Assembly: GCF_001693385.1 (NCBI RefSeq)
Contig: NZ_CP016428.1
Span: 5,828,001-5,892,000, forward strand
Length of the DNA: 64,000 nt
Source: Bradyrhizobium icense
GTDB lineage: Bacteria > Pseudomonadota > Alphaproteobacteria > Rhizobiales > Xanthobacteraceae
Direction: 5' to 3'
The notes beneath the pieces were generated by a model that was not told the DNA's origin, did no database searches, and saw only the letters and a program-made list of their open reading frames with translations. This document shows, one piece after another, positions 3,837 to 54,778 of this stretch (its first letter is position 1; each line of letters starts with the position of its first letter). Made by a program: the position numbers and the translations under genes.

Positions 3837-3847
3837 GAAGAGTTCCC

Positions 3848-5829: not shown

Positions 5830-5866
5830 GGGCCCGCGCTCTCCTAGTCTCCTCCTCTCTGCCGGG

Positions 5867-5880: not shown

Positions 5881-5905
5881 CCCAAAGCCGCTTCCCTTTG
5901 CTCCG

Positions 5906-6775: not shown

Positions 6776-6781
6776 GACCTC

Positions 6782-6946
6782 TCAGTCCTCCCGCAACGGC
6801 ATCCGAGATGCCTGGTCGAAAACCGCCTGGTTGCGGGGCCAAAGCGCGTAGATCACGATCGCAATGAACAGCCCGACGAAGCTCGGCGTCCACACACTGG
6901 TGACGAGGTCCGACGCGATGTTGTGAACGGTCAAGATTGCTTTCAT
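6782..6946 (-). CDS. fixQ: Cytochrome cbb3 oxidase small subunit FixQ (CcoQ)
   Basis: A 54-residue subunit found by reading the gap between fixO and fixP on the minus strand. It has one membrane helix (SFVGLFIAIVIYALW) followed by PRNQAVFDQASRMPL, the typical CcoQ tail. CcoQ stabilises the association of FixP with the FixN-FixO core. The ATG at 6946 lies 11 bp after the fixO stop, and the TGA is 6 bp before fixP. The tight packing supports the call. Confidence 0.93.
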   Translation of the reverse strand: MKAILTVHNIASDLVTSVWTPSFVGLFIAIVIYALWPRNQAVFDQASRMPLRED

Positions 6947-6957
6947 CGTCCTGCCTC

Positions 6958-7692
6958 TCAGCGAAGATTGGCCTTTTCGTTGTAGAGCTTGAAGTCGACC
7001 AGCGTGCCGAGCATCTGCAAATACGCGACCAGCGCATCCATCTCGGTCGGCGCACCGGCCTTGCTGTCGAAATTGCGGATCACAGCTTTTGGATAGCGCT
7101 TCGCGAACGCATCGGTGCCGACATTGTCCGGATCGGCCTGCGCCTTCAGGTCGGCGACCGCGTTCTTGATTTGCTCGTCCGAATAGGGCACGCCAACGAC
7201 GCGGCTGGCCTTGAGGTTATCGGCGACAATAGCGGTGTCGACCTCGGTCTGGGCGAGGAACGGATAGCCCGGCATCACCGACTGCGGCACAATCGCGCGC
7301 GGATTGGTCAGGTGAGTGACGTGCCACTCATCGGAATACTTTGCGCCGACCCGCGCGAGATCCGGCCCAGTGCGCTTCGAACCCCACTGGAATGGATGGT
7401 CGTACATGCTCTCGGCAGCGAGCGAGAAGTGGCCATAGCGCTCAACCTCATCGCGGAGCGGCCGGACCATCTGCGAGTGGCAGAGATAGCAGCCCTCGCG
7501 GACATAGATATTGCGGCCAGCTAGTTCGAGAGGTGTGTAGGGCCTGACGCCATCGACCACCTCGATCGTGCTTTTCAGGTAGAACAGCGGCGTGATCTCG
7601 ACCAGGCCGCCGATCGCAATCACAACCAGAATGCCCGCGATCAGGATGATGGAATTCTTCTCGAAGATTTGATGGCGGGTCCAGAAGGACAT
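6958..7692 (-). CDS. fixO: Cytochrome cbb3 oxidase monohaem subunit FixO (CcoO)
   Basis: A 244-residue membrane-anchored monohaem cytochrome c subunit of the cbb3 oxidase. The N-terminal helix ([21 protein letters not shown]) is followed by the haem site CYLCH in the block [17 protein letters not shown]. Methionine-bearing VMPGYPFL and the C-terminal [12 protein letters not shown] are typical of the family. The ATG at 7692 gives the normal FixO start [13 protein letters not shown]; the open frame continues upstream only as an overlap with fixN. It lies 11 bp after fixN. Confidence 0.97.
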
Positions 7693-7703
7693 CCGATCGC
7701 TCC

Positions 7704-9353
7704 TTATTCCGCCGCCTGCAACGCGAGCTCTCTGCCGACGTCCGCCTCGCTTGCACGCACCGTCATCCATAGATTGTAGGCCATGATCAGCGCGCCGATC
7801 AGGAACAGCGCGCCGCCGGCGGCCCGGATGACGTAGAACGGGTGCATCGCTTCCACCGTCTCGAGGAAGGAATATTCGAGGAAGCCGAGCGAGGTGTAGG
7901 CGCGCCACATCAGGCCCTGCAGGATTCCCGAGACCCACATCGCCGAGATGTAGAGCACGATGCCGATGGTCGAGATCCAGAAGTGCCAGTTGACGAGCTT
8001 CAAGCTGTACAGTTCCTTGCGGCCCCACAGCCAGGGCACCAGGCAATACAGCGCACCGAAGGAGACGAAGCCGACCCACCCCAACGCACCGGAGTGAACG
8101 TGGCCGATGGTCCAGTCTGTATAGTGACTCAGCGAGTTCACCACCTTGATCGACATCATCGGACCTTCAAAGGTGGACATGCCGTAGAAAGCCACGGAAA
8201 CCACCAGCATGCGCAGCACCGGATCAGTGCGCAGCTTGTCCCAGGAGCCCGACAGCGTCATCAGGCCGTTCATCATGCCGCCCCAGGATGGCATCCAGAG
8301 CATCACAGAAAAAGTCATGCCGAGCGTCTGCGTCCAGTCCGGCAGCGCCGTGTAGTGCAGATGGTGCGGGCCGGCCCAGATGTAGAGGAAAATCAGCGAC
8401 CAAAAGTGGATGATCGAGAGCCGATAGGAATAGACCGGGCGCTCCGCGCGCTTCGGGATGAAGTAGTACATGATGGCGAGGAAGCCGGCGGTCAGGAAGA
8501 AGCCGACCGCGTTGTGGCCGTACCACCACTGGAACATCGCATCCTGCACACCGGCCCAGGCGATGTAGGATTTCGAGCCGAGCAGTGACACCGGCAGCGC
8601 TGGGTTGTTGCCGAGATGCAGCACGGCGATGGTGACGATGAAGGCGAGATAGAACCAGTTGGCGACGAAGATGTGCGGCTCTTTGCGCTTTAACAGCGTC
8701 ATCACGAACACGACGAGATAGACCACCCAGACGATCGTAAGCCACAGATCGGCGTACCATTCGGGCTCGGCATATTCCTTGGATTGCGTCACGCCAAGTA
8801 GATAGCCGGTGCCCGCGATCAGAATGAAGAAATTGTAGCCGAGCACGACGAACCATGGCGCGAGATCGCCCACGAGCCGCGTCCGGCAGGTCCGCTGCAC
8901 CACATAGAACGAGGTCGCGATCAGCACGTTGCCGCCGAAGGCGAAGATCACCGCCGAGGTGTGCAGCGGCCGGAGCCGGCCGAAGCTGGTCCAGGGCAGA
9001 TCGAGGTTCAGCGCCGGCCAGGCGAGCTGGGATGCGATCAAGAGCCCGACGGCGAAGCCGGCGATGCCCCAGAACATCGCCATGAAGGAAGCAAACTTGA
9101 TCGGACCGAGATTATAGTTCGGCTTCCCGTTGATCTCCTCCGGCGGCAGCGACGCGGGGCGGTCAAGATACCGATTCATGATGGCGAAGGAGGCGACGCC
9201 GCTTGCCACGGCAGCGAGCGAAGCATGAAACGCGAACGGCGCGTCCAGCGCCTTGGCGGCCGCGAACGCGCAGACGAAGGCCGCCATTGAGAAGAATAGC
9301 ATCAGCCCGGCTTCGCCGTGAGTCATCCATTTCGTGAATTGAGTTTGCTGCAT
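7704..9353 (-). CDS. fixN: Cytochrome cbb3 oxidase catalytic subunit FixN (CcoN)
   Basis: A 549-residue haem-copper oxidase subunit I, the oxygen-reducing core of the high-affinity cbb3 oxidase used in microaerobic and symbiotic respiration. Membrane helices run along the whole protein. Histidine ligand regions are visible in [40 protein letters not shown] and [14 protein letters not shown]. The ATG at 9353 gives the same length I recall for B. japonicum FixN; a more upstream start would run into the FixK box. It is first in fixNOQP and is probably induced by FixK under low oxygen. Confidence 0.97.
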
Positions 9354-12347: not shown

Positions 12348-13878
12348 TTGAGCGGCATAGCTCCCTTCCCGTGTGACGACAGCAGCCACGATCAGCGCTT
12401 TCGGCTGGGTGCCGACGGCGCTGGCGTCGGCGGCTGGGATATCGATCTGTCCACCAGGGAGTTGTTCTGGTCGAATACCGCGCGAAAACTGTTCGGCGTT
12501 TCCAATGCCGCTGCGGTCAGCTACGACCTGTTCCTTTCGCTGCTCGAGCCTGAGGACCGCGAGCGAACCGAGCAGGCGATCTCCCGTTCACTCGAGACCG
12601 TCGTTTGACCTCTCCTACCGGCTAAGACCCGAGGACGGCGGCAGCCATTGGGTCCGCGCCCGCGGCAGCGTCATCAGGGACAAGGATGGCATTCCGTCCC
12701 ACCTTTCCGGCGTCGTGCTCGACCTCGACGAGGAGAAGCGGCTCGAGGAGGACCTGCGCACGCGCGAACGGCACCTGCAGTTGATACTGGAGACCATCCC
12801 GGACGCGATGATCGTCATCGACGGCCGCGGCATCATGCAGTTCTTCTCGAGCGCGGCGGAACGCCAGTTCGGCTACCTCCAGAGCGAGGCAATCGGCCAG
12901 AATGTCAGCATGCTGATGCCCGAGCCCGACCGTTCACGCCATGACGGCTATATGGCGCGATACGCCGCCACCGGCGAGCGGCACATCATCGGCAGCGGCC
13001 GCATCGTCACCGGTCAGCGCAAGGACGGCACCACCTTCCCGATGCACCTGTCGATCGGCGAGATGCAATCCGGCGGCATGCCCTATTTTACCGGCTTCGT
13101 CCGCGACCTCACTGAGCATCAGCAGACCCAGGCGCGGCTGCAGGAATTGCAGTCGGAGCTCGTCCACATGTCACGGCTGAGCGCGATGGGAGAGATGGGT
13201 TCTGCATTGGCACATGAGCTTATCCAGCCGCTGGCTGCCATCAGCAACTATGTGAAGGGCTCGCGCCGGCTGCTTGCCGCGAGCCCCGATCCGAACCGCG
13301 CTAGAATCGAGAACGCGATGGATCGCGCCGCGGAACAGGCGATCCGCGCCGGGCAGATCATGCGGCGGCTGCGCGATTTCGTCGCCCGCGGCGAATCCGA
13401 AAAGCGCGTCGAGAGTCTTTCGAAGATGATCGAAGAAGCCGGCGCGCTTGGCCTAGCCGGTGCGCGCGAACAGGACGTGCGAATCCGCTTCAGCCTGGAC
13501 CCGCAGCATGACCATGTCCTGGTCGACCGCGTCCAGATCCAGCAGGTGCTGGTCAATCTGTTCCGCAACGCGCTGGAAGCCATGGCCCAGTCCGCACGGC
13601 GCGAGCTCATCGTCTCTAACCGGCCGATCGACGAGGACATGACCGAAGTCTCGGTGTTCGACACCGGTCACGGATTCCCCGAAGATGTGGAAAAGCACCT
13701 GTTCCAGACCTTCTTTACGACCAAAGAAACCGGCATGGGGGTCGGGCTGTCGATCAGCCGCTCCATCATCGAGGCCCATGGCGGCAGGATGTGGGCCGAA
13801 TCCGATGACGCAGGCGGCGCGACGTTTCGCTTCACCCTGCCGGCGGCACCCAACGAGAGTTTGAAAGATGGCAACTAG
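12348..13878 (+). pseudogene. fixL: Oxygen sensor kinase FixL, frameshifted
   Basis: FixL is the haem-PAS histidine kinase that phosphorylates FixJ when oxygen is low. The start is TTG at 12348 with AAGGA upstream. The first PAS domain (VGGWDIDLSTRELFWSNTARKLFG) runs in one frame and stops at about 12608. The rest continues in another frame from about FDLSYRL: the haem PAS with RSRHDGYMARY and GRIVTGQRKDGTTFPMHLSIGEM, the H-box, N-box NLFRNALEAM and G-box GMGVGLSISRSI. One extra base or two missing bases near 12600 explains the break. The H-box reads HELIQPLAA where FixL normally has HELNQPLAA. The C-terminus overlaps fixJ by 11 bases. It is either a decaying copy or carries a sequencing error. 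Confidence 0.88.
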
Positions 13879-39408: not shown

Positions 39409-39770
39409 GAGCCAGTCGCAATGAAATTCGGCGCGAAAGCGGGGAAATTCCCCTGAAGTATGCAGGCGCGGAATTGTATGTTTGGCGCTTTCCTTTCCGT
39501 GACAAAGTTGAACTTTCACTTTTGGATCGATCGCAACCAAATGGCATCGAACAAGCGTGCAAATCGAACGAGCAAACGCAGCCCGAATCCGACCGCGAAA
39601 AGTTCGGCTGCCCGCGAACGCAATCTGAAACTGACTAGAAATTAATGAGGCACATATCCCAAATGGGACTGTCGACTTGGAGTCACGCAGCTATAAGTTG
39701 CCGCCCTGATTGATGATGTTTCTAGCTTTAGTATTGGCGAGCACGATTTGATTATTCCAAATGCTCAAGA
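39409..39770. other. Intergenic region, no gene recognised
   Basis: About 360 bp. It contains TCCCAAATGGGACT at 39657-39670, a palindromic motif whose reverse complement matches part of the 52011-52030 sequence. Nothing else is recognised. Confidence 0.4.
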
Positions 39771-40418
39771 GTGAAGAGGCAACGGGGGGCCGGTCCAAAG
39801 GGAATTCTATTTTGCCCGAGAGAACTGCGCATCGCTCGTGGGGAACGGCGCAGGATGATTGGTGCGCTTGGATTACTGAAACGGCCTGCGATTGTGGTCG
39901 ATCGTCACGGCATGGTGCTGGATGTCAACGACGACGCCTTGAAGCTTTTCGATGACGATCTCTCGATCAAGGGAAAACGTCTGTTCGCGGCCGACCCTCA
40001 ATCGCGAATGAGATTGGACCGATTGGTCAACCAGATCCGTCTCGCATCGAGTAACCCGGGTCGTACCACCTTGCAAACCGTGATCGCCAGACGCCAGGGC
40101 CGTCCGGTCGTCGTTGATGCCTTTGTGCAAGGGTTGGAAGGCGAGGACCTATTACCGGATGTGGGCGCCCTTCTTCTCCTAACCGATCTGAACGAAAACC
40201 TTCAGGTGTCGCAGAGCTCTTTGATGGAGATCTTCGGACTGACACCTGCCCAGGCTCGTCTCGCATCGCTCCTGGTCGAGGGAAAAGCGCTGGAGGAAAT
40301 TGCCCTTGATATGAAAATTTCGCCGGGGACGGCGCGCAACCATCTCAAGGCCGTCTTCCTGCGGACCGGGACGAGACGGCAAGCCGAGTTGGTATCACTG
40401 TTGTCCCGCCTACGATAA
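39771..40418 (+). CDS. LuxR-type regulator with PAS-like part, probably N-truncated
   Basis: A 215-residue ORF. The C-terminal LuxR helix-turn-helix is clear: FGLTPAQARLASLLVEGKALEEIALDMKIS and TARNHLKAVFLRTG. Before it, AIVVDRHGMVLDVNDDALKLFDDDL has the look of a PAS sensor domain. Related proteins are usually about 370 residues with another N-terminal domain, so the gene is probably truncated. The formal start is GTG at 39771; the ATG at 39855 (MIGALGLLKRP) is another option. The first 25 residues look like non-coding sequence. Confidence 0.6.
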   Translation: MKRQRGAGPKGILFCPRELRIARGERRRMIGALGLLKRPAIVVDRHGMVLDVNDDALKLFDDDLSIKGKRLFAADPQSRMRLDRLVNQIRLASSNPGRTTLQTVIARRQGRPVVVDAFVQGLEGEDLLPDVGALLLLTDLNENLQVSQSSLMEIFGLTPAQARLASLLVEGKALEEIALDMKISPGTARNHLKAVFLRTGTRRQAELVSLLSRLR

Positions 40419-41079: not shown

Positions 41080-42840
41080 TTGAACGTCTTGAAGCCGCAC
41101 CTGCAAAGCACCGTATTTACGTTACTTGAGCGCCAGACGAGCCAACGAGAGATCCAGCGGCTGACGGGGATCGACCGCAAGACGATCCGGCGCTACCAGG
41201 CGATTTTCATGTCCCGGCGAGCGGCGGAGGCAAATTCCCCCGGGGTGACCGCCGGCTCCGAGGCCGCCGATGGCCAAACTCCCCCACCTCCGCGACCGCC
41301 GGCTATCGGAGCGACGGTGGCCGCCAAGTCGTTTGATTTCGCCCGCTCCGCCTGTGAACCGCATCGGGAATGGATCGAACAGCAGGTCCGTCTGAAGCGC
41401 AATGCGCAGGCGATCTACCAGGATCTGGTAGACCAGTTCGGCTTCACGGCGAGCTATGAGAGCGTCAAGCGTTTCGTGCGCGCCTTGCGCCACAGCGATC
41501 CCCAACAGTTTGACCGTCTCGAGTTTGCCCCCGGCGAGGAAGCTCAGGTCGATTATGGCGAAGGCGCGCTGACCCGTGATCCGAAGAGCGGTCGTTACCG
41601 CCGGCCGCGCCTGTTCGTGATGACCCTGCGCTACTCGCGGCGCAGCTTCCGGCGGGTGGTCTGGAAGTCGAGCCAGCAGATCTGGGCACAGCTCCACGAA
41701 GAGGCTTTCCGGTATTTCGGCGGCGCCGCCGGCTATGTCGTGCTCGATAATCTCAAGGAAGGCGTCATCACGCCCGACCTGTACGAGCCCGAGCTCAACC
41801 GGCTCTACGGCGCGGTGCTCGCGCATTACGGCGTCGTGGCCGATCCGGCACGGGTGCGGGACCCGAACCGCAAGGGGACCGTGGAGAACGCGATCCAGCA
41901 CACCCAGGGCACCGCGCTCGCCGGGCGGCGCTTCGAGTCACTCGAGGCTCAGAACGGGTTTCTGGAGCACTGGGAGACGAACTGGGCTTCCAAACGCATT
42001 CATGGCAGCACCAGGCGTCAGGTCGAGGCCATGTTCCAGGAGGAGAAGCCGCATCTGCAGCCATTGCCCGCGACCGGCTTCCGTTATTTCTCCGAGCTCG
42101 TGCGCACCGTCTATGACGACACCACCGTGCGGGTGGATCATAGCGACTACGCCGCACGCCCCGCGCCGATCGGCAGCCAGGTCGTGGTCCGCCTCTACGA
42201 GAGCACGATCGAGATCCGCGACCGCAGCACCCAGGCGCTGCTGCGCGTTCATGCCCGCGCCGCACGGCCGGGTTCGCTCAAACTGCCGGACAAGGAGCGC
42301 CCGTTCAATCCATCCCGTCAGACCGGCTTCCTGCTGGCAAGCGCCGGCGACATCGGACCGCAAGCGAAGGCGCTCTGTCAGCGCCTGTTCGACACCGAAG
42401 GCCGCGTCGGGCAACGCGCGATGTGGGGCATTGTCGGACTTGCGAAGAAGTATCCCGCCCGGCTCGTCGAACAGGCCTGCGATCACGCGGTGCGTCATCA
42501 CATCCATCGCTACAAACAGGTGCGCGCCCTCGTCGAGCGATTGTTCGAGCAGGCGCTCGAGCACCTTGATCAAGCACCACAACTCACGCTGCCGCTGACG
42601 CAGGATCATGCACTGATCCGTCCCGCGGCCGAATACGGCGATCTCTTTCGCCTCGGCGCCCAGAACCGTGCCAGCAACGAGAGCCGGCCCATCAACACCG
42701 GCGATGATCAGCGTGCACCAAACCGCGCTCGCGTCGTCTCCGCAACCCCGGCCAGCTCCGCCGACGCGAGCGCTCCTGCCGAGACCTTGATTGCCGATCA
42801 ACTCCGCCTTTCAACCTCCACAGGAGATCCTTCGGAATGA
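41080..42840 (+). CDS. istA: IS21-family transposase IstA
   Basis: A 586-residue DDE transposase. The N-terminal helix-turn-helix reads TSQREIQRLTGIDRKTIRRYQ. The catalytic region shows aspartates in EEAQVDYGEGAL and YVVLDNLKEGV and the glutamate in KGTVENAIQHTQ. The C-terminal part is arginine-rich. The start is TTG just after a GGGGAG run. It overlaps istB by four bases (ATGA), the usual IS21 coupling. It appears intact, so the element may still be mobile. Confidence 0.95.
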   Translation: MNVLKPHLQSTVFTLLERQTSQREIQRLTGIDRKTIRRYQAIFMSRRAAEANSPGVTAGSEAADGQTPPPPRPPAIGATVAAKSFDFARSACEPHREWIEQQVRLKRNAQAIYQDLVDQFGFTASYESVKRFVRALRHSDPQQFDRLEFAPGEEAQVDYGEGALTRDPKSGRYRRPRLFVMTLRYSRRSFRRVVWKSSQQIWAQLHEEAFRYFGGAAGYVVLDNLKEGVITPDLYEPELNRLYGAVLAHYGVVADPARVRDPNRKGTVENAIQHTQGTALAGRRFESLEAQNGFLEHWETNWASKRIHGSTRRQVEAMFQEEKPHLQPLPATGFRYFSELVRTVYDDTTVRVDHSDYAARPAPIGSQVVVRLYESTIEIRDRSTQALLRVHARAARPGSLKLPDKERPFNPSRQTGFLLASAGDIGPQAKALCQRLFDTEGRVGQRAMWGIVGLAKKYPARLVEQACDHAVRHHIHRYKQVRALVERLFEQALEHLDQAPQLTLPLTQDHALIRPAAEYGDLFRLGAQNRASNESRPINTGDDQRAPNRARVVSATPASSADASAPAETLIADQLRLSTSTGDPSE

Positions 42841-43607
42841 CCATGACCTTGCCAGAAATCGATCGCTGCCTACGACAGTTGCGGCTGTCGGGCATACGCG
42901 ACACGCTCGAGACCCGGGTCCTGCAGGCCCAGGGCGCCAGCCAACCGTTCCTCGAGACCTTCTGCCTGCTCCTGCAGGACGAACTCGATCGTCGTCAGTC
43001 CCGTCTCATCGCTCGCCGCTACCAGCAATCTGGGCTCGAAGAGAAGCTCACGCTCGCGGAGTTCGACTGGTCCTTCAATCCCAAACTGCCGCGTCAGGCC
43101 TGCTTCCAGCTGCATGCGCTGAAATTTGTCGCCGTCGGTGAAAACGCTCTGCTCATTGGCAAGCCCGGCACCGGAAAGTCGCACGTGGCCAAGGCCGTCG
43201 CCTACCAGGCCATCCTGCAAGGCCACAAGGTCCAGTATCTCGAGGCCGATGACTTCTTTCACCGTTACGCCCTCAGCCCCGCCGCTCAGCGCGAAGCGCG
43301 ACTGCGCAGCATCTTTGACTGCGATCTGCTTGTGCTTGACGATCTGTTCCTCGCTCGCACCATCCCCGACGAAGCTGGCGCTTTGCTGCAGACTCTGATC
43401 CATCAACGCTACAAATTGCACCGCAGCGTCATCGTCACGTCCAATCGCGTCGTGCAGGATTGGGGCGCTTATCTCCGCGACAACACCATGAGCACGACGA
43501 TCCTTGACCGCCTCATGCACCATTGCCATCTGCTCGAGTTCGACGGCCGCAGCTACCGCCTCAAGGAAGCCGCCGAAGCCCTTGCACGCAAAACCCAGTC
43601 AACCTAA
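42837..43607 (+). CDS. istB: IS21-family transposition ATPase IstB
   Basis: A 256-residue AAA+ helper ATPase that guides target choice and stimulates IstA. Walker A is GKPGTGKSHVAKAV and Walker B is CDLLVLDDLFLA; sensor-type TSNRVVQDWG follows. The N-terminal helical part (LPEIDRCLRQLRLSGIRDTLETR) is normal. It overlaps istA and ends about 75 bp before the right end of the element. Confidence 0.95.
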   Translation: MTMTLPEIDRCLRQLRLSGIRDTLETRVLQAQGASQPFLETFCLLLQDELDRRQSRLIARRYQQSGLEEKLTLAEFDWSFNPKLPRQACFQLHALKFVAVGENALLIGKPGTGKSHVAKAVAYQAILQGHKVQYLEADDFFHRYALSPAAQREARLRSIFDCDLLVLDDLFLARTIPDEAGALLQTLIHQRYKLHRSVIVTSNRVVQDWGAYLRDNTMSTTILDRLMHHCHLLEFDGRSYRLKEAAEALARKTQST

Positions 43608-45666: not shown

Positions 45667-46407
45667 TTATTTGACGGCCAGAAATCCCTCAAAACAGACA
45701 TGCTTGTATATGGTCATGGTGTCCACAAAACCCGCACGATGCAACATATCGAGATTGCCCTTGGTCGAAAACGGCTCAAGTACGCCTTTCAAACTACTTG
45801 CTTTTCCCAGGACTTCTTCCGGAGAGTAGCCGTTCTCCAATTTGTAGTCGATATAGATCGCGCTCATAATGTCCTGGAATCGCGCATCTGGCGCTCTGAC
45901 TTTCTCGAAAAACAGGAATGCTCCACCCCAATTAAGCGACTTATAAACCAAATCAATCAAGCTTTGCCGGTGTCGCGGCGGAACGAACTGAATCGTATAA
46001 TAGGAGACGATAAAATCGCTGGCTTCGTAATCTACCTCGCATGCGTTTGCGAGCAGGTACTCAACGTTCGGCGCTTTGCCCTGAGCGCTGCGCGCGTATT
46101 CAATCATGGCACGTTCGTTATCGATCCCGATCCAGCGCGTGCCGTGTGGATGACGCTTCGCCAATTGCCGTAGGAGCGTTCCGGTTGAAGTACCGATTTC
46201 ATAACCGACGGAGTCACTCTTTACGAAAAAGTCACTCACCTGTTCGATCAGCCTATGGCCGGCTTCATAGTTGGGAACGGACCTTGCGACGTGGCGATCA
46301 AAATATTGAGGTGTATCACCACCAAAGCTCCAGCCAGCCCGTTCGGCCCGTATGCCGTCTCCCGTAGGCCCGCTTTGCCTTGTAGTAGTCTGCTCCAAGC
46401 TGTCCAT
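45667..46407 (-). CDS. CmoA-like SAM-dependent methyltransferase of the RiPP operon
   Basis: A 246-residue protein, close to the 247 of E. coli CmoA, the carboxy-SAM synthase of tRNA modification. Shared blocks include the SAM loop VGYEIGTSTGTLLRQL, IGIDNERAMIEYAR, YYTIQFVPPRHRQSLI, LNWGGAFLFFEK and ENGYSPEEV. The residue aligned with CmoA Arg199, which as I recall holds the carboxylate, is Ala203 here (GKASSL against QKRSML). It is therefore more likely a methyltransferase of CmoA fold than a carboxy-SAM synthase. The ATG at 46407 follows GAGAGG. It is the last gene of the operon, 22 bp after the radical SAM gene. Confidence 0.8.
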   Translation of the reverse strand: MDSLEQTTTRQSGPTGDGIRAERAGWSFGGDTPQYFDRHVARSVPNYEAGHRLIEQVSDFFVKSDSVGYEIGTSTGTLLRQLAKRHPHGTRWIGIDNERAMIEYARSAQGKAPNVEYLLANACEVDYEASDFIVSYYTIQFVPPRHRQSLIDLVYKSLNWGGAFLFFEKVRAPDARFQDIMSAIYIDYKLENGYSPEEVLGKASSLKGVLEPFSTKGNLDMLHRAGFVDTMTIYKHVCFEGFLAVK

Positions 46408-46429
46408 GACGACCTCTCCGGCCTTTCGG

Positions 46430-47926
46430 TTATGCGAGCTGCAGCTTGCGTTCGCTTGTCGTTTTTGTGGCCAATGCGCTTTTGACCGCGGGACTGAAGA
46501 AGAAGGACAAGGCTTCATCTTCAAAGAGCTTACCGAGCGAGGAAAGTCTCAGTCCGGCCTGGCCGCTATCGTCGAGATAAGCCTCTAATGCGCCGGCATT
46601 GTTCAGCTCATTGACAAGAGCGTCATAATACCGCGAAAGCTGGGGATGAGCGGAGCGGAGCGACCGCCGGCTTTCGTCCTCGATCCGTCCGGTACGAAGC
46701 CCTGTCGCATAAGACCCGGCCAGCAATTCCTCTTCGTCGACGCCGCGTCCCGTGGCGATCGGAACGTTGCCTGTCAAAACGGCATCCACATAAGTCCGGA
46801 TATTCGGGTCGTTGCGAAACACGTGCCCCCGATAGTTTGCCTTCGCCACTTTGACGCCGACGTGGGAATAAGCTCCCGCCCCCACTCCAAGAAGATCGCT
46901 CGACGCCGACGTCCGGATCTTCTTGAATGGATCGGTAAATTCATGCGATCGCACAAAGCGGTTTCCGTCGGTTTGGTCATAGCCGAGCGCGGCCATTTCC
47001 TGCCAGATAAGCATGCGGCCAAGAAGCGTGGCGAACTCGTCCTCGAACTCCGCTCGCTTTGTTTCCGTCCTATACCAGTGTCCTTGAGGACGATCCCCAA
47101 ATCGCCCGTGATACCAAGTGAGGTGTGGCGGACGGATCTCGGCAATGGCTTCAAGGTTATCCCATACTTCCGAAGTCGACGCCTTATAGAGACCCTGGAT
47201 CAGGTCGAGATTCCAGTTCTCAAAGATCCGATTTGCAATTGCGCATGCACGAATTGGAGTCTCGCGTTTGTAGCCGCGGGCTGCATATTTGAGCACTTCA
47301 TCATCGAACGACTGTACTCCAAAGCTCAGGCGGGTAATGCCTTGAGCCTTGAGAGACCACAGCTTGTGTTCCCCCTCAGGCGCGGCGATTGTGAGGGGAC
47401 TGCCTTCGATGCAAAACTCTGCGTCGGGTCGCAAATCATATTCATTTCGAATGGTACGTATCAAACTGTGCAACGCTGGCTCATCGAGAACGAGCGGCGT
47501 GCCTCCGCCGATATAGATTGATGACACTACGGTGCCGGCGCGAGCGAGCCGCGCGCCCCAAAAAGCGAGTTCACGTTTTAGCGCCGTGAGATAACGAGCA
47601 ACTTTAGCGTCGTCCTCGATAGAGTGTTTTGCCCGGCCAGCGTAGTGATCGACCGTGTAATGACAGAAGGTGCAGCGCGTTTCACAGAACGCTACATGAA
47701 CGTACAGGCTCGTTTCTCCGCCCCACTCGATCGTATCGATCACACTCGTTGAATCGAGCGGTGTCAATGAGTTGATGGGCGGGTAGATTGCCACTGAATG
47801 CGATCCGCCCAGGACCGCACGACTGATGCCGATGCCGGCGGCATGAAGCGCCGGCAACGCCGCTGGAATTCCGAGCCGTTGCAGCGACGAGCGTGCTTGC
47901 TCAAGAGCGGATTCTCGCGATCTCAT
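46430..47926 (-). CDS. HemN-like radical SAM enzyme of the RiPP operon
   Basis: A 498-residue radical SAM protein. The 4Fe-4S motif is CETRCTFC (Cys81, Cys85, Cys88) in LYVHVAFCETRCTFCHYTVD. It is followed by IYIGGGTPLVL and RLSFGVQSFDDEVLKYAARGY, both typical of the HemN/HemW branch. The C-terminal winged-helix-like part (DEEELLAGSYATGLRTGRI) also resembles HemN. It differs from the hemN at the left end of the window, and its place among maturation genes suggests peptide or cofactor modification rather than haem synthesis. HemN-like class C enzymes are known methylases in peptide biosynthesis. GAGGTG precedes the ATG. Confidence 0.85.
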   Translation of the reverse strand: MRSRESALEQARSSLQRLGIPAALPALHAAGIGISRAVLGGSHSVAIYPPINSLTPLDSTSVIDTIEWGGETSLYVHVAFCETRCTFCHYTVDHYAGRAKHSIEDDAKVARYLTALKRELAFWGARLARAGTVVSSIYIGGGTPLVLDEPALHSLIRTIRNEYDLRPDAEFCIEGSPLTIAAPEGEHKLWSLKAQGITRLSFGVQSFDDEVLKYAARGYKRETPIRACAIANRIFENWNLDLIQGLYKASTSEVWDNLEAIAEIRPPHLTWYHGRFGDRPQGHWYRTETKRAEFEDEFATLLGRMLIWQEMAALGYDQTDGNRFVRSHEFTDPFKKIRTSASSDLLGVGAGAYSHVGVKVAKANYRGHVFRNDPNIRTYVDAVLTGNVPIATGRGVDEEELLAGSYATGLRTGRIEDESRRSLRSAHPQLSRYYDALVNELNNAGALEAYLDDSGQAGLRLSSLGKLFEDEALSFFFSPAVKSALATKTTSERKLQLA

Positions 47927-47964
47927 CGTCGCACCTCACGGTATCGCGCCACCAGTTGAATAGA

Positions 47965-49740
47965 TCACCGCCGTTGCGCGATGACCGTAAGATAAACGTC
48001 GGCGCGCGTATCTGGACTGTCGTCGTATCTGTAGATTACGTCGTAGGGATTTATCAGGCGCGGCATATACTGCTTGCGCCAAAGGGTTGCATGCTCGCCC
48101 ACGAGCGACGGGACGATTTGACCCCAGATGCGTTCGGCGATGATCGTCAGGTCCGGATGCACGCAGGCTTCGCGAATCCAAGTATAGATTTCGTTATACT
48201 GGACCCATGGCTGCCAGAGCGAGGCGAGATGAAGCTGCACGAGCCGATGGGTGATCGCGATGCGGCCTCCGGGGCGAACGACCCTCGCCATTTCTTTGAC
48301 CATGCTCGGTCCGAGTCCCAACTCCCAGATGCCTCCGGTCCATTCGTTAACGGCCGCATCAACTGACGCATCGGGCAGAGCGAGACGCTGCGCAAGACCA
48401 GGACGAAAATGGAGGTTCGTGAAGTTTCGTTCGGAGGCGAACCGGCGCGCCCGATCGCTCAGGCAGCGAAACATCTCGACGGAAATCACGAGTCCGTCTT
48501 CGCCAACCGCCGGCGACAATCTCCGTGCAACACGTCCCAGGCCGCCGCACACGTCGACCACGATGCTACCTGGCTTGAGCAGCAGCAATTCCGGGTGATT
48601 GGGAAGCAGATCCTCCTGCGCGCGGACCAGTTTGTCCTCGACTTCAGGTAGCTGGCTCCAGCTGTTGTCGTTCTCACACGACTTCAACAAAGGGAGACGC
48701 CATCGCAAATACGCCGCACGAAAGCGGTTGGAAAAATCGGACAGCCGGCCGGGAGACGTAGAAGACGCCGCATTGCCCAGCAACACTTCATCACTCGGCA
48801 AATTAAGGATCAAGACGTCGCCGAGCGCGTTCTCGATCGTGCGAACTGCGTTGAAAATGGCGACAAAATCATCTTCGCCGGCATCGCCCGCTGGCCAGAG
48901 AGCTTCCGGCTCAAGCCGTAAGCATAGACCGGAGATGAAGGCCGAGGCCGCCCAGGTCAGAACGCGGCCCCGCTCAGTCTCATTCAGGATCGATAGGTCG
49001 GGCGTCATGAGTAGATGGACGGCGACGCAATCGCGGACCATCTCCTCAAGCCCGGCAATCGGATGGTTCGGCACCGGCCAAGAAATTCTGTCGAGGTAGA
49101 CCGAGGCGCCGAGACGAACGAGCGATCGCCGGAGTTCACGGTCGCTCGACAGGTGTTGCGTTTGCACCACGGTCTGGTGCATTCGAACGATGCCGTTCTG
49201 ACGAAGGCGGGACAGTTCGCCCAAAATCGACATGTGATCTGCCAGCCGCGCGCAACGCAGCAGCAGCTCCGGCGGATGCGTTTCGTCCTTCAAGCGTGTG
49301 GAGATCTGCGCAATCGAAATCTCGGCATCCAGGTCGATTACGATGGAGCGGCGCAAGATTGAGGTGCGCGCCCCTTCCGCGATACGTCGGAGATGCTCAA
49401 GCTCTTCGGTCGACGGCTTCGTTTGCGAGGTAACGTGCATAAAGCCGTGCTGGCGCAGCGAAGCCAGCATCTTGTCGATCATGTGCTGATCGTCGAATTG
49501 AGCGCGCAGAACCGCCAGATTAACAGGCTCGTTGATGAGCGTGGTGACAAAATCCAATAGGCCGTCGCCGGGTGGTACAACCATGCCGATTTCGAAGTAG
49601 CGGTGACTGAGCAATCGATGTTCGGCAATCTCGACGCCTAGAACCTCGACGTCCGGGTCGAGCATGACAAATGCATCGTCCGGCAGCCCGCCGGAAAGGC
49701 TATCGGGACTGGAGGTCTTAAGGTGCTCAAGCAGTTTCAT
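47965..49740 (-). CDS. Large protein: PqqD-like region plus C-terminal methyltransferase
   Basis: A 591-residue protein of no named family. Residues about 30-100 (FEIGMVVPPGDGLLDFVTTLINEP and MIDKMLASLRQHGFMHVTS) look like a PqqD-type winged helix that binds precursor peptides. The middle (IVIDLDAEISIAQISTRLKD and VRLGASVYLDRISWP) is not recognised and has no cysteine cluster. The C-terminal third is a class I methyltransferase: VVDVCGGLGRVARRLSP is the SAM loop, then ALPDASVDAAVNEW and MARVVRPGGRIAITH. The ATG at 49740 overlaps the upstream gene by 14 bases; a TTG at 49773 is also open. It probably modifies the Cys-rich peptide with the neighbouring enzymes. Confidence 0.72.
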   Translation of the reverse strand: MKLLEHLKTSSPDSLSGGLPDDAFVMLDPDVEVLGVEIAEHRLLSHRYFEIGMVVPPGDGLLDFVTTLINEPVNLAVLRAQFDDQHMIDKMLASLRQHGFMHVTSQTKPSTEELEHLRRIAEGARTSILRRSIVIDLDAEISIAQISTRLKDETHPPELLLRCARLADHMSILGELSRLRQNGIVRMHQTVVQTQHLSSDRELRRSLVRLGASVYLDRISWPVPNHPIAGLEEMVRDCVAVHLLMTPDLSILNETERGRVLTWAASAFISGLCLRLEPEALWPAGDAGEDDFVAIFNAVRTIENALGDVLILNLPSDEVLLGNAASSTSPGRLSDFSNRFRAAYLRWRLPLLKSCENDNSWSQLPEVEDKLVRAQEDLLPNHPELLLLKPGSIVVDVCGGLGRVARRLSPAVGEDGLVISVEMFRCLSDRARRFASERNFTNLHFRPGLAQRLALPDASVDAAVNEWTGGIWELGLGPSMVKEMARVVRPGGRIAITHRLVQLHLASLWQPWVQYNEIYTWIREACVHPDLTIIAERIWGQIVPSLVGEHATLWRKQYMPRLINPYDVIYRYDDSPDTRADVYLTVIAQRR

Positions 49741-50698
49741 GGGGCGCAGCGCCGCAGATCCGGTGGGAAGCAAGATCGAGATCGTCTGCGGCTTGCCTTC
49801 CCTGCCCGGGAGGCACTTGCACCTCTCGACTGGTAAGGCTGAGCAGATCCGATGCGCTTACGATGACACCGAGCCCCGCCAAACAGTCGATCAGCGAGAG
49901 CACATCAGCGTGGGGAACATCGTTCAGGGCCGTCGCCAGTTCCACCAAGCTCTTCGGGACGCGAAGAACATCAAAGACGCGGGTGGCCCGCTGCGAAAGC
50001 TCCGCATATTCATGGGCGGCTTCGGCGGCCGGAACATAGATCAGCCAATGTCGTGGAGAGGCTTCGAGGTCGTGGCGGGGGTCGAAGTCGAACGGACTTT
50101 CAATCCATGGGGTGAGATCACAGGATGACGAAATCATGGTCGCTGCCGGATGGGCGACGAAGCGGATTGACCGCAAATTCCTGCTCGGGCTTGTCCCTGC
50201 CGGGAAGGCCTCCGCCGCGGTATTGGGCCATATCAGGGGAGCGCACTCGCCAAGCTGCCGCGCAAGCGCAATGCCAGCCGCGTCGATCGCCAGCACGTCC
50301 TGGTGTGCGCGGGAGAAGAACTCCGGACGACCGGCCAAATATGCGACAAAGGCCGCCGCGGTCCGCCAGAAGTAAGGCCCATTATCCGCGTAACCATCTG
50401 ACTGCACAAATTCTGCCGCAACCGCTTCGATATCGAGTCCACTCGCGTGCAGCAGACGGCGGGTGAGCGGGACAAGGTCCAGCGCACCCAGAGCATTCCT
50501 GACCAATCCGCGACGATACATGCCAATGTTGGATTCGGTCGGCGCGGGAGTGCCCGCATAGTCTGCCAGTATTGCAACCTCATCCGCCGTGCAGCCATGA
50601 GGATCTTCCGTCCTTGAGTTGGGATCCATGACCCAATTCGCGAGGCGATCGTCTGTCAGGACGCGCCGCCACGTATCCCAGACCAGCCGCGCGTCCAT
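49727..50698 (-). CDS. MNIO partner protein (MbnC/TglI-like role)
   Basis: A 323-residue protein whose ATG overlaps the stop codon of the MNIO gene as TAATG, so the two are made together. The N-terminal half has YRRGLVRNALGALDLVPLTRR and DNGPYFWRTAAAFVAYLAGRPEF. This resembles the partner proteins paired with DUF692 enzymes (MbnC, TglI) in pattern, though not closely. The C-terminal part (ASPRHWLIYVPAAEAAHEYAEL and PKSLVELATALNDVPHADV) looks like a PqqD-type peptide-binding winged helix. It probably delivers the precursor peptide to the oxidase. The family assignment rests mainly on gene order and pattern. Confidence 0.68.
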   Translation of the reverse strand: MDARLVWDTWRRVLTDDRLANWVMDPNSRTEDPHGCTADEVAILADYAGTPAPTESNIGMYRRGLVRNALGALDLVPLTRRLLHASGLDIEAVAAEFVQSDGYADNGPYFWRTAAAFVAYLAGRPEFFSRAHQDVLAIDAAGIALARQLGECAPLIWPNTAAEAFPAGTSPSRNLRSIRFVAHPAATMISSSCDLTPWIESPFDFDPRHDLEASPRHWLIYVPAAEAAHEYAELSQRATRVFDVLRVPKSLVELATALNDVPHADVLSLIDCLAGLGVIVSASDLLSLTSREVQVPPGQGRQAADDLDLASHRICGAAPHETA

Positions 50699-51618
50699 TA
50701 GGCAGCCTCGCTGCGCGTCGTGCGCCTGCTCGCCCGGCCGTAGGCGCGATCCCATGCCGCGCGTCCCCGCTCGAGATCCGAGAGGATTAGATCGGTGGTC
50801 CGGCCGGTATCGGCCATTTCCCCATTGCAGTAGAGGGATTGGGTTTCATATTCGAGGATGACGGCGCCAGGGCGCGCGCGCGACAAAACATCGTCGAGCA
50901 GGCCCCAAACGGCTTCTGCAACCTGGGTATCGTGAAGGTCGTGATACTGACCGTTGATCCAACGCCCTCCTGCCATATGAATAGTGATGATACGGTCGAG
51001 CGGTATAGTGCTCAGAAATCGATGAATGGAATAGCCTCTCGCGCGGTGGTTCTGCTCGTTCGCGTATAGATTGTGCAAGTCCAGGTGCAAGTAGGTGCCT
51101 GATAGCTCAAGCATTCGCGCGAGGAATTCCTCTTCGGGCATATCGCTGCCGGGGCACACGCGGTAGTACGCAGCGTTTTCGTGTGCGAGCGGAACGCCGT
51201 AAAGATCTTGAAGCGCGCGCGCCCTCGCTGCCACACGAACAGCTTCAGCCCGCGAGAATTGCAACGGACTGCTCCAAACGTCGGACCAGGAGGCATCGCC
51301 ATAGAAACAGTGGTTGGCGACTGAGGAAACGTTGAATTTCTGAGAGAGCGGCACGTGTCGCCGCACCGCCGCTGTGCTCATCAGATCGTCGAAGCCGAAG
51401 TCACCGCCGTAGTTCGAATGTCCGAGGAGCGGATATTTATCCGTAATGTCGCGCATGAGATCGACGGCACGGGGAGAAATAAGCCCCGGCCCATCAAGAG
51501 GGCTCATGACCGAGTCGAACAGTATTTCCAGCGCATCAAGGGGTTGGTCCAGAAACGGAAACCAACCAATCAATTCCGGATTGAACTGAAGCCCAACGCC
51601 CAAGCGCGGAACGCTCAT
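50698..51618 (-). CDS. MNIO (DUF692-family) multinuclear iron oxidase
   Basis: A 306-residue TIM-barrel protein of the DUF692/MNIO family, which includes MbnB and TglH. These enzymes use two or three iron atoms and oxygen to rework cysteine residues of ribosomal peptides. Family blocks are LGVGLQFNPEL, LLGHSNYGGDFG, NHCFYGD, AHENAAYY, HLDLHNLYANEQNH, TIHMAGG and DLHDTQV. His, Asp, Asn and Glu in these blocks are the likely metal ligands. GGAGG stands eight bases before the ATG at 51618; an ATG ten codons upstream falls in the hairpin region. It follows the Cys-rich peptide gene by 76 bases. Confidence 0.86.
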   Translation of the reverse strand: MSVPRLGVGLQFNPELIGWFPFLDQPLDALEILFDSVMSPLDGPGLISPRAVDLMRDITDKYPLLGHSNYGGDFGFDDLMSTAAVRRHVPLSQKFNVSSVANHCFYGDASWSDVWSSPLQFSRAEAVRVAARARALQDLYGVPLAHENAAYYRVCPGSDMPEEEFLARMLELSGTYLHLDLHNLYANEQNHRARGYSIHRFLSTIPLDRIITIHMAGGRWINGQYHDLHDTQVAEAVWGLLDDVLSRARPGAVILEYETQSLYCNGEMADTGRTTDLILSDLERGRAAWDRAYGRASRRTTRSEAA

Positions 51619-51635
51619 TTCCGAGGCCTCCAATA

Positions 51636-51671
51636 GCCTTAGCACCATCGCCTGAAGCGATGCGCCAAGGC
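51636..51671 (-). promoter_or_regulatory. Hairpin between precursor peptide and MNIO genes
   Basis: GCCTTAGC and CATCGC pair with GCGATG and GCCAAGGC around a CTGAA loop, with two small mismatches. No T-run follows, so it is not a classic terminator. It lies between the peptide stop and the MNIO ribosome site. Such hairpins often limit read-through or protect the upstream mRNA, which keeps precursor peptides more abundant than their enzymes. Confidence 0.65.
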
Positions 51672-51694
51672 CCCACCGGATCAGAGTCCGTCAG

Positions 51695-51919
51695 TTAGGG
51701 ATGATCTGCCGCGCACTTCGCCGCGGTTGCGGCGCATCTCGCTGCGGTTGCAGCGCACCGCGCCGCGGTTGCCGCGCATCGCGCTGCGGCGGCTTTTGCC
51801 TGGGCATGCGCCGCAGTCGCCGCACATTTGGCAGCCGTAGCGGCGCATTGCGCAGCCGTTGCCGCACATTTAGCGGCTGCTGCCGCCGCTTCTTTCACCG
51901 AGAGCTTTTTGACGTCCAT
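51695..51919 (-). CDS. Cys-heptad-repeat precursor peptide (putative RiPP)
   Basis: A 74-residue peptide. After a short polar start (MDVKKLSVKE) and six alanines, it has seven units of the form (K/Q/R)CAATAA. Cysteines are at 18, 25, 32, then 48, 55, 62 and 69. The two blocks are separated by HAQAKAAAA, which breaks the seven-residue register by two residues. The end is KCAADHP. About half of the residues are alanine, so a helix with all cysteines along one stripe is likely. GGAG lies seven bases before the ATG. It opens an operon with an MNIO enzyme, partner, methyltransferases and a radical SAM enzyme, so it is most likely the substrate. No described RiPP family that I know has this repeat. 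Confidence 0.78.
   Translation of the reverse strand: MDVKKLSVKEAAAAAAKCAATAAQCAATAAKCAATAAHAQAKAAAARCAATAARCAATAARCAATAAKCAADHP
51712..51885. repeat. 21-bp tandem repeats encoding the Cys heptads
   Basis: The DNA inside the precursor gene is a set of diverged 21-bp units, each encoding one seven-residue repeat; on the plus strand they read roughly GCGGTTGC.GCGCA.C. Unit number could change by slippage or unequal crossover. A break of 48 bases instead of 42 between the third and fourth cysteine codons marks the boundary between two blocks. Confidence 0.8.
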
Positions 51920-52479
51920 TAGATTTCTCCATGTTTGGAATCAAGTCTGCCGAAAACCGCGAGGACCGCGCTCAATCACTAGTAGAACTACCTCATCCAG
52001 ACGCGGGGGCCAGTCCCATTTGAGATAGGAAAAAGATTATTTTTGCCGGGATAACCAGAAAGCAGAACATGATCTCGAAGAAGCCCGTCACAAAAGGGTT
52101 ACAGATTTTTAACATCGAGCATATCGCTGGCTGCCGGAGCACGAGGCCGCTTCCACCAGCCAGACGATGCCGTTGCAGCGGCGACTGAAGGCGCCTCAAC
52201 GAGCGTCCGCTCTTGATGCCGATGAGCTCGGAGCGAGCATCTTGCTGGCCGAACAGATCGAGCGGGCGGCCGCGACCGCCGTCGACCAGGTGGTCGCGCG
52301 CGTCGAGCGCAGAACGATGGCGGGCTGAAGGAGGTCAATCTCCGGTACAAGCTATATTGGCAGCGACAAATGGCGAAGGTCGAGAAGGCCATGAACTATT
52401 CGACGCACCTCGCACAGTTCACGCTCTCCATCGTCATTGCAGCGGCGCAGCAAGCGCGCCGCTGCTAATCTCACCGAAA
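51920..52479. other. Upstream region of the RiPP operon with mobile-element scar
   Basis: The operon promoter must lie here, but no box is obvious. TCCCATTTGAGATAGGAAAA at 52014-52035 resembles motifs at 38651 and 39657 and may be an IS end. At 52215-52465 (plus) two frames give LGASILLAEQIERAAATAVDQ, then LKEVNLRYKLYWQRQMAKVE. They look like a frameshifted small gene of unknown function. Confidence 0.4.
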
Positions 52480-53611
52480 GGAAGCTGCTATAGTGGCCCG
52501 CCACGCCTGCCGCGCAGAAGAGGGTTTCCCAGACTGGCTCGACACACTGAACCGCGTCGAGACCATGTCTGGCGAAGTGTCGCCGAAGCCCTGGCAAAAT
52601 ATCCTCATGATCGACGCCGACGACGAAGCGGAGCTGACAGCGGGCCCAGGCACTCGGAGAAGTGGCGTTGACCGGTGCGTCCGGGTTTCCCGACCTCATG
52701 GCGAGAACATCGAACGAGCACCAGCCATACACCTGCTCTGCTGGGCTCAGTCCCGGTTCGCCCCAACCCGGGTCGACCTCGGGTCCTCCGAGTCCCCCGT
52801 CAACGACACAATTAGCGAGCACCCGCCGTACGGATTTCAGTGCAACTCGCTTGGAATCCATTCTGGAATCAGAATGCGGCCGGTCGGAAAGACGATCGTC
52901 GTCAACGCATGCGCAATCTGGATTGCGGGATCAGACAGCAAACCACCCCAATTGCCCGAATGGTATGCGCTCGCGCGCGCCTTGATGGAAATGTCGAACG
53001 TGAGAGATCCCCGCGAACCCAGGAATATGGTGGGCCGATGCTCAGACAGCCGCGGCCCGTCGGACGCAACGAGAAGATCCTCAGACAGGAGCTCCTTGTG
53101 AGTCGTACATAGTTCGCGGAGGCCCGGCGAGTCGATCTCTTCTCCCATCTCGATGAGATACTTTACGTTGAATCCTAGCCGACCTCTCGTCTCGACGATG
53201 GCGCGAAGGCCGGCAATATTGATGGCATGCTGCCCCTTATTGTCTGCGACACCCCCGTCCATACCAGCATTCATCGGCCTCGACGAGAAGCCACGGTGAC
53301 ATCCCCTTGCTCCAGCAATCGTCCTGACCCCAAACCACATCACCGTGGCCATACCCAAGCACCGTCAGCAATTCTCGATCTTCTATGCGCTCGGCTTATA
53401 GAAAATGAGCGTCGGCAACGGTCAAGACCCGGCAGTCGCAGCCGAAATCTTCAAAGATGCGCCGGAGCTCGTTGAGATAATCGACTATCTGCAGTTTTCG
53501 CTCGGGGTTCTGACTCTCGGAAGGAATGGCTACGAGGCGCGACAGCACAGCCTCGAAGCCTCCAGAATCGAGATGGTCTCTCGCGCGCGCGATCGCGGCG
53601 TTCCGAGTCAT
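52480..53611 (-). pseudogene. M20-family peptidase/deacylase, frameshifted
   Basis: The ATG at 53611 has AGGAG upstream and begins TRNAAIARARDHLDSGGFEAVLSRLVAIPSESQNPERKLQIV. The frame stops at about 53396. Homologous sequence continues in other frames: WGQDD and MDGGVADNKGQHAINIAGLRAI with the metal-site region, KYLIEMGEEIDSPGL with the catalytic Glu pair, LGSRGSLTFDISIKARASAYHSG from the lid domain, and VDHEDILPGLRRHFARHG. The C-terminal catalytic end is missing. M20 enzymes hydrolyse acyl-amino acids or dipeptides. It lies 39 bp (to this ATG) downstream of the ABC ATPase, so it was part of that operon. Confidence 0.8.
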
Positions 53612-53650
53612 TTCGAGTAGCTCCTGCACACCAAAGAGGACGATCGGAGG

Positions 53651-54778
53651 TTAACGCGCGGCTGGAAATACGCGGGTATGCGCAGCCTCAATCGAAACGC
53701 GGACCCGCTGACCGGATTGGAATAATGGCCGCCCCGGATTGACCGGAGTCCGCGCCGTCAGCCTAAGCTCTCCGACTTGCACCAGAACGCTCTGGTTCGT
53801 GCCAGTGTATGCGGATTCCAGCACCGTCGCTGTGGCATCGTCGTCAGTCTCTAAACGAACAAATTCGGGACGAACCGCGAGCAGACCGCGATCGTCCTGA
53901 GCGAGCACCTGATCCTTCCGCAGGTCGAGTAGCAGCCCAAGGTCAGGCGCAGTCACCCCAACAATCTGACCGGATCGACGTAACTCCGCCGGCAAGAAGT
54001 TCATCTCGCCGATGAAATCGGCGACGAAGGCCGTAGCCGGCTCCTCGTACAGATCCCGAGGCGATCCGAACTGCTGCAGGCGGCCGCGCTCCAGGACGGC
54101 TACGCGATCGGCCATGGACAGCGCCTCTTCCTGATCGTGAGTGACGAAGATTATCGTGCTCCCTACCTCTTTATGGATTAGCTTGATCTCCATCTGGAGC
54201 TGTTGTCGAAGCTTTCGATCCAGAGCCCCGAGTGGCTCGTCCATCAACAGAAGGGGTGGACGGAACACCAATGCGCGGGCTAGCGCGACACGCTGCTGCT
54301 GCCCTCCCGAAAGCTGGCTTGGAAGCCGCGCACCGTAACCGTCAAGCGCGACCAGCTTCAACGCCTTCGTGACTTCACGCTCGGCATCGCGACCGCTCAT
54401 GCCCCGTCTGCGAAGAGGATACGCAATGTTCTCGGCAACTGTCATGTGCGGGAAAAGTGCATAATTCTGGAACACCATTCCGAAGCCGCGGCGATGTCCT
54501 GGCACATCGTTGATCCGGACACCGTCAAGCTTGATATCGCCGGAAGAAGGAGCCTCGAAACCGGCAATCATCATGAGCAGCGTGGACTTACCCGATCCAC
54601 TGGCGCCGAGCAGCGCCACGAACTCGCCAGGTTGCACTGACAACGACACGCCGTCGACCGCTTTGACCGAGCCGAACATCTTGGTGATCGCGTCGACTGA
54701 CACTGCGCCGCGTTGCTTTTTTGCCGAGAGAGGCGTCGTGGCCGAATGTTCGGCGGTCATCGCTGCAATGATCGTCAT
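53651..54778 (-). CDS. ABC transporter ATPase, PotA type
   Basis: A 375-residue ATPase of the spermidine/putrescine-type importers. Walker A is GASGSGKST, then the Q-loop [10 protein letters not shown], signature [15 protein letters not shown], Walker [13 protein letters not shown] and switch [12 protein letters not shown]-terminal TOBE regulatory domain follows ([27 protein letters not shown]). All catalytic residues are intact. The ATG overlaps the stop of the M24 gene (ATGA). It belongs with the fused permease and binding protein upstream. Confidence 0.93.

Follow-up and report, generated by a model that had tools for sequence, protein, structure and literature searches.

In a stretch of 64,000 nucleotides from the genome of Bradyrhizobium icense (contig NZ_CP016428.1; hereafter the window), a small peptide with seven regularly placed cysteines is encoded upstream of five enzyme genes, one of which specifies an MNIO, and the question raised by this operon is what the enzymes make of the cysteines. 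A sequence-only reading had proposed that the locus is an undescribed operon for a ribosomally synthesized and post-translationally modified peptide (RiPP); the six minus-strand genes that it described are present at the place and on the strand given, and two short overlaps and several short gaps between them remain after correction of the gene starts. By analogy with the biosynthesis of 3-thiaglutamate, the enzymes might excise a carbon from each internal cysteine and then alkylate the sulfur, with the 3-thia residues kept in the peptide; taken as a whole, we regard this account as evenly poised. The features concerned are as follows (positions in the window):

45667..51919, minus strand: whole operon, six open reading frames (ORFs)
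51695..51919, minus strand: precursor peptide, 74 amino acids, head MDVKKLSV, Cys at 18, 25, 32, 48, 55, 62 and 69 in [KRQ]CAATAA heptads
50698..51648, minus strand: TglH-like MNIO (PF05114; match to TglH 8hci_D), likely start 51618
49727..50755, minus strand: TglI-like MNIO partner (match to 8hci_C; NF058584 below cut-off), likely start 50698
47965..49773, minus strand: three-part protein combining a RiPP recognition element (RRE), a pseudo-radical-S-adenosylmethionine (pseudo-radical-SAM) domain and a methyltransferase, likely start 49740
46430..47926, minus strand: HemN-like radical SAM enzyme (PF04055), motif CETRCTFC at residue 81
45667..46524, minus strand: CmoA-like protein, most similar to the TglE-like proteins encoded in tgl clusters, likely start 46407

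The later starts given for four of the enzymes are suggested by the lengths of homologues or by the points at which homologues begin. A start at 51618 gives the MNIO 306 amino acids, the commonest length among the homologues listed; that at 50698, which touches the MNIO stop, agrees with several fused homologues that align from partner residue 20. The three-part protein beginning at 49740 has 591 amino acids, a common homologue length, and overlaps the partner gene by ~14 nucleotides, and the alignments of the CmoA-like proteins of two related loci (L003 and L005) begin at the Met at 46407, ~22 nucleotides after the radical SAM gene.

Linkage of the cysteine-heptad peptide to five enzymes

An MNIO scan of GTDB species contigs yielded 20 loci (L001-L020). 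Six of these (L001-L006) contain all five enzymes, whereas just three of the five are represented in the remaining 14 (L007-L020), namely the MNIO, the partner and the CmoA-like gene, and neither the RRE/methyltransferase nor the radical SAM protein has a match there at E 1e-4. Each of the 14 encodes a peptide whose end reads FxLDDIE..ESKVFA, and none a heptad-Cys frame; these loci are taken to be tgl-type clusters because of their FxLD peptides and because a PEARL-type domain was found in the three genomes tested. Additional heptad loci were identified on a plasmid of Burkholderia stagnalis (L041) and in two genomes congeneric with Burkholderia sp. SRS-46 (L052 and L053). The resulting heptad set of 10 loci, including the window, is defined by the MNIO and the methyltransferase, so the completeness of the five enzymes in it is partly built in. 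The heptad peptide is an independent finding: it precedes the MNIO in all nine loci that cover its place, in Bradyrhizobium, Xanthobacteraceae and Burkholderia (the L003 sequence stops 79 bases short of the MNIO match, and the place of the peptide lies outside it), as against 0/14 tgl-type loci. The five enzymes accompany the peptide in these nine loci in two gene orders, the second being that of the Burkholderia loci, where the CmoA-like gene follows the MNIO and a single fused protein comprises the partner and the methyltransferase protein. These observations, together with a partner-methyltransferase fusion in 35 of the 120 homologues listed (227 found), bear out the proposal of a single RiPP-type pathway, and the six genes are very probably linked in one.

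The reading of the peptide as a chance ORF was ruled out by codon changes at third positions and by the Cys spacing. Between the window and L001, 12 synonymous and three non-synonymous codon changes were counted, with 15 of 16 base changes at the third position; the corresponding counts are 13 and two for the window against L002, 22 and five for L001 against L002, and 17 and two for L052 against L006. The window peptide is 51% Ala with 7 Cys among 74 residues; at least five Cys spacings of 7 arose in 0/100,000 shuffles of it. It is also conceivable, if very improbable, that the peptide is not the substrate but perhaps a helix with a structural or regulatory role, and that the enzymes modify something else. 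The chemistry of the operon is deduced from sequence, and the peptide, a low-complexity query, had no match at E 0.001 among 959 candidates in a protein search; the linkage of peptide and MNIO in 9/9 loci, the purifying selection and the Cys spacing all argue that the peptide is indeed the substrate.

The nine precursors (eight distinct, as those of L041 and L053 are identical) contain 6-9 Cys each and share the head DVKKLSV. The Cys spacing is 7 in 45 of 54 cases, and each precursor has exactly one exception, of 16 residues in eight and of 9 in one, i.e., 7n+2. Among the 56 Cys of the eight distinct peptides, the next residue is Ala in 53 and the one after it Ala in 55. If the peptide is alpha-helical, the heptad Cys would lie on one face, and the break of +2 would bring the second Cys block round to roughly the other side of the helix or signal a turn; in the L005 peptide, a Pro occurs at the break. 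A different use of the repeats is suggested by the residue directly before the Cys, a Lys or Arg for 44 of the 56: together with the variable number of Cys, this could indicate a multi-core precursor in which cuts after Lys/Arg free several short peptides Cys*-Ala-Ala-Thr-Ala-Ala-Lys/Arg. This is quite unlikely in our view, as Gln, His or Glu stands before the other 12 Cys, a multi-core precursor would not need so strict a 7-residue phase with a single 9/16 offset, and no protease or exporter recurs across lineages among the operon neighbors listed, the flanks being of differing length.

The MNIO and its partner compared with TglH and TglI

The MNIO matches the superfamily model (DUF692, PF05114) with 121.9 bits (cut-off 25; E 3.6e-35), and its best relative in the PDB is TglH (8hci_D; 364 bits, E 5.4e-108), the only other PDB match scoring 50 bits. 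All ten of the residues in question, namely the nine iron ligands of TglH and Asn73 (as identified in PMC10880893), are conserved in the window MNIO, and all seven ligand motifs are present in the MNIOs of 10/10 heptad loci. Identity to the MNIOs of the 14 tgl-type loci is 50.5-55.4%, and the remaining MNIO matches across 60 related genomes show 23-34%, with the exception of the operon copy in genome G018, which has the contig of L002 (96%). The partner aligns with TglI (8hci_C; E 2e-14) over residues 20-297, most of its length; it has no Pfam match at E 0.1 and scores 72 bits against the NCBIfam TglI model NF058584, below the equivalog cut-off of 450. Among solved structures, TglH and TglI are thus the closest to the MNIO and its partner by sequence. 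A second MNIO is encoded in the same genome at 6779290-6780024 (G000:C1) and is 27% identical to that of the operon.

TglHI is described as removing the beta-carbon of Cys as formate (PMC9016710). The proposal that the MNIO acts on the repeated Cys is supported at the level of inference, and its original wording, in which these residues are oxidized or rearranged, can be sharpened: carbon excision is more likely, because TglH is the closest of the MNIOs studied so far.

According to PMC12452194, the peptides of many MNIO systems are rich in Cys, and bufferins bind copper; bufferins likewise have an MNIO beside a Cys-containing peptide, as do the adjamnio systems. A bufferin- or methanobactin-like product, in which the MNIO would form a thiooxazole or an oxazolone/thioamide on Cys and the peptide would bind copper or another metal, is consistent with the seven evenly spaced Cys and with weak matches to bufferin-type NCBIfam models. 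However, the MNIO and partner resemble TglH/TglI far more than they do bufferin or methanobactin models, the peptide head contains no signal-peptide-like stretch (by eye), and neither DUF2063 nor a metal pump or metal regulator was found among the operon proteins or in the LuxR-type gene described below; a metal ligand of this kind is therefore improbable. Adjamnio-1 and -2, which have no signal peptide, are reported also to use PME-type 2 partners (PMC12452194), and no precursor with the present repeat and no TglE-like gene is named in the parts of that paper covered, figures and supplement aside. Assignment to the bufferins themselves was rejected on the partner lacking DUF2063 and on the MNIO_BufB score of 87 bits against a cut-off of 310. 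The metal-binding, redox or signaling product raised in the sequence-only reading is supported neither way, and nothing was found that points to metals.

Trees of the MNIO add little. The first contained very long rows and was rebuilt without L030 and L028, and both were made without four paralogue rows (stops in translation, from minus-strand loci read in forward orientation) and five further paralogue loci. In the rebuilt tree, the heptad and TglH rows group against seven paralogues of related genomes with support of 100/100, to which little weight is given because the joining branches sum to ~10 changes per site. A single clade of heptad rows was not rejected for a set of 17, comprising nine loci and eight metagenome proteins seen without gene context (p 0.219), a result that does not itself demonstrate the clade; a clade of the nine loci alone was rejected (p 9e-07) because the metagenome rows fall among them. 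The metagenome proteins resembling the MNIO number 360 at E 0.001, of which the best 120 were listed, and are known from the proteins alone, without neighbors.

Proposed modification and fate of the cysteines

In the tgl system (3-thiaglutamate, a Pseudomonas pearlin), TglHI is described as acting on a single C-terminal Cys added to TglA by the PEARL ligase, after which TglE, a carboxy-SAM synthase, and TglF, which transfers its product to the norcysteine thiol, follow (PMC10491745 for TglE and TglF). The heptad operon shares with it a TglH-type MNIO, a TglI-type partner, a TglE/CmoA-type protein and a further methyltransferase. It differs in having no PEARL or TglG that could be found and no FxLD scaffold, with a ribosomally encoded internal Cys repeated 6-9 times instead; in addition, the three-part protein replaces the small tgl methyltransferase, and a HemN-like radical SAM enzyme is present. 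The PEARL/LanB-type domain PF04738 was detected in 0/8 heptad genomes or contigs and in 3/3 tgl genomes, and a relative of TglG at E 1e-6 in 0/8 and 2/2, respectively. In the PF04738 search, G286 and G289 apparently represent a single genome, W01 comprises just a plasmid, and G290 and G291 are metagenome-assembled genomes (MAGs), in which absence weighs less. Since neither PEARL nor TglG was found, a free amino acid is unlikely to be released from a scaffold, and retention of the modified residues in the peptide is probable. A pearlin system as such was rejected, with the FxLD/E motif also absent from the nine precursors.

The protein previously read as a PqqD-like/methyltransferase fusion does possess RRE-like and methyltransferase parts, but this description was incomplete, as it also contains a radical-SAM fold that resembles TigE but lacks the cluster motif. 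The layout consists of an RRE-like winged helix (residues ~35-115), a TigE-like radical-SAM barrel (~140-340) and a class I methyltransferase (~390-602). The N-terminal part was folded separately because the matches listed for the model of all 602 residues in the fold comparison were methyltransferases; modeled alone, it has a radical-SAM fold resembling TigE. CmoB is not among the fold matches listed for either model, which excludes nothing. Unlike TigE and other RRE-bearing radical SAM RiPP maturases, the protein has an attached methyltransferase and no CxxxCxxC cluster motif (absent from 120/120 homologues listed and from 65/65 aligned rows), an unusual architecture whose structure would be worthwhile on its own. 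The fusion with a partner-like region mentioned above includes all 34 listed homologues longer than 800 residues. A Cys at residue 174, inside the cluster-less domain, is invariant in 65/65 aligned rows.

The CmoA-like protein is 52-59% identical to those of the 14 tgl loci and more distant from E. coli CmoA (99 bits). Its score against TIGR00740 (125 bits, E 4.2e-36) is under the equivalog cut-off of 193, as are those of tgl-type proteins (125 and 138 bits). Neither CmoA nor CmoB over cut-off was found in the 8 heptad genomes, and both are present in 2/2 Pseudomonas controls; hence, the CmoA-like gene is not a spare copy of the tRNA enzyme, and the simplest user of any carboxy-SAM made lies inside the operon. 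The radical SAM enzyme matches PF04055 (55.1 bits, cut-off 29.5) and contains the CxxxCxxC motif as CETRCTFC; NCBIfam models of the HemN/HutW type are all below cut-off, and its PDB matches include 1olt and NocN (9p2u).

A pathway can be proposed from these features. The conserved head DVKKLSV would serve as a leader bound by RRE-type domains, and the MNIO with its partner and O2 would convert each heptad Cys to 2-mercaptoglycine with loss of formate, by homology with TglHI. The bared thiol would then be alkylated by the three-part protein; because the partner and the methyltransferase are observed fused in many relatives, an immediate hand-over between them is suggested. If the TglE-like protein makes carboxy-SAM, the group would be carboxymethyl and the residue 3-thiaglutamate, and otherwise it would be methyl; carboxymethyl is considered a little more likely. 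The HemN-like enzyme may make a later carbon change, comparable to that of the B12 radical SAM enzyme TmoD, which is the weakest step. As the searches for PEARL and TglG found neither, the modified residues would remain in an Ala-rich helical peptide of two blocks.

Several points weigh against this account. TglHI is described in PMC9016710 only on a C-terminal Cys and as requiring an F[N/D]LD motif and a set distance, and in the heptad peptides all Cys are internal and the FxLD motif of TglA is absent from all nine. The best NCBIfam models for the MNIO are HvfB and BufB (91 and 87 bits, far below cut-off), and no TglH model is among the NCBIfam matches listed. The methyltransferase resembles methyl-donating arsenite and UbiE-type enzymes and has no BLAST similarity to the methyltransferase gene adjoining tglE in L008, taken as tglF. 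No role has been demonstrated for the radical SAM enzyme, and the sparse spread of the operon, given below, fits a dispensable product. The main doubt on carboxy-SAM concerns Arg199 of E. coli CmoA, which is reported to contact the carboxyl group (PMC3663124): this position is Ala in the window and Ala or Thr in the heptad rows, and carboxy-SAM synthesis may have been lost in the heptad CmoA-like proteins. The tgl rows have Thr, Ala or Ser there with an Arg one position on in 14/14, and an Arg at either position occurs in 0/10 heptad rows.

The loss of this neighboring Arg in every heptad row and the likeness of the fused methyltransferase to methyl-donating enzymes suit an alternative in which the same excision is followed by plain S-methylation, the TglE-like protein no longer making carboxy-SAM, with possible later C-methylation by the radical SAM enzyme. 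The tmo route to 3-thiahomoleucine in Tistrella mobilis is described as proceeding in this manner, with an MNIO and partner followed by S-methylation and then a radical SAM step (PMC9303977). In contrast to the heptad operon, the gene list given there includes a PEARL, a protease and a B12-dependent radical SAM enzyme and no carboxy-SAM-type gene, the two being compared by description. Plain methylation nevertheless leaves no simple need for a TglE-like gene, which is retained in 10/10 heptad loci at the identity to tgl proteins given above, if SAM is the donor; we consider it unlikely, with a real chance of being correct. Beta-carbon excision plus one S-methylation gives zero net mass change, so an unchanged mass of the peptide is not decisive.

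Returning to carboxymethylation, a more specific picture would have a TglHI-like enzyme running along a ribosomal peptide whose 6-9 internal Cys lose the beta-carbon, giving two rows of 3-thiaglutamates in an Ala-rich helix, with the dead-radical-SAM methyltransferase as peptide guide. We offer it tentatively, as somewhat more apt to fail than to hold. MNIO RiPP clusters are a known kind, and the combination of genes and the layout of the substrate appear to be new; no account of the peptide or the gene set was found in searches of open-access papers, supplements and figures aside, in line with the claim that the operon is undescribed. In the parts of the literature covered, such chemistry was found only for a single Cys added at the end of a carrier peptide. 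If the carbon-excision account is correct, Cys carbon excision is not confined to one appended residue, and genes can specify it at selected internal sites, many per peptide, which would provide a genetically programmable route for 3-thia amino acids into peptides. It would also bear on whether 3-thia peptides can themselves be a product, a question that Yu and van der Donk pose (PMC9303977).

Regulation, distribution and surroundings

Three further features concern the control of the operon:

51971..52029, minus strand: promoter-region block upstream of the peptide gene (CCTATCTCAAATGGGACTGGC ... GGTAGTTCTACTAGTGATTGAG), conserved in three Bradyrhizobium
39771..40418, plus strand: LuxR-type gene (GerE helix-turn-helix just under cut-off, weak PAS match)
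39653..39673, plus strand: further copy of the left part (half) of the block, with mismatches at 3 of 21 positions

The block is located ~50-110 bases before the peptide gene and, among the loci compared, is confined to the window, L001 and L002. The genome contains its right half once, and the sole other match to its left half is the copy ~100 bases before the LuxR-type gene, an element present in the window and L002 and absent in L001. The LuxR-type gene adjoins the operon in L001 (87% identical) and L002 (85%) and, among 23 loci, only there and in the window. The LuxR-type protein probably regulates the operon.

The operon was identified in 3/265 species genomes of Bradyrhizobium, 3/65 genomes in the genus of SRS-46 and 2/296 in the family to which the Pseudolabrys genome belongs (both among the loci already found), and in 1/398 genomes drawn phylum-wide, that of the window itself. 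The L003 and L005 operons are nearly identical, and their MAGs are labeled Candidatus Binataceae and Xanthobacteraceae, respectively; a binning error in the L003 MAG is likely.

Between the operon and the LuxR-type gene, a transposase (rve and Mu-transposase C domains) and a helper-like ATPase, of the IS21 type by eye, occupy 41080-43607 on the plus strand, flanked on either side by what seem, by eye, to be fragments of a gene for a sugar-phosphate mutase. Immediately upstream of the operon, an M20-type peptidase is represented by pieces (52840-53629, minus strand; below the Pfam cut-off, the second piece by eye) that adjoin an ABC transporter ATPase (53651-54778). Genes of the fix type, encoding FixG-like and FixO-like proteins, a heavy-metal P-type ATPase and a PAS histidine kinase, are located ~32-50 kb from the operon (1644-8079, minus strand, and 12373-13878, plus strand). 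The B. stagnalis operon is near tyrosinase-family, DUF2182 and collagenase genes; parts of this neighborhood recur in L052 and L053, and some neighbors are common to the Burkholderia loci only.

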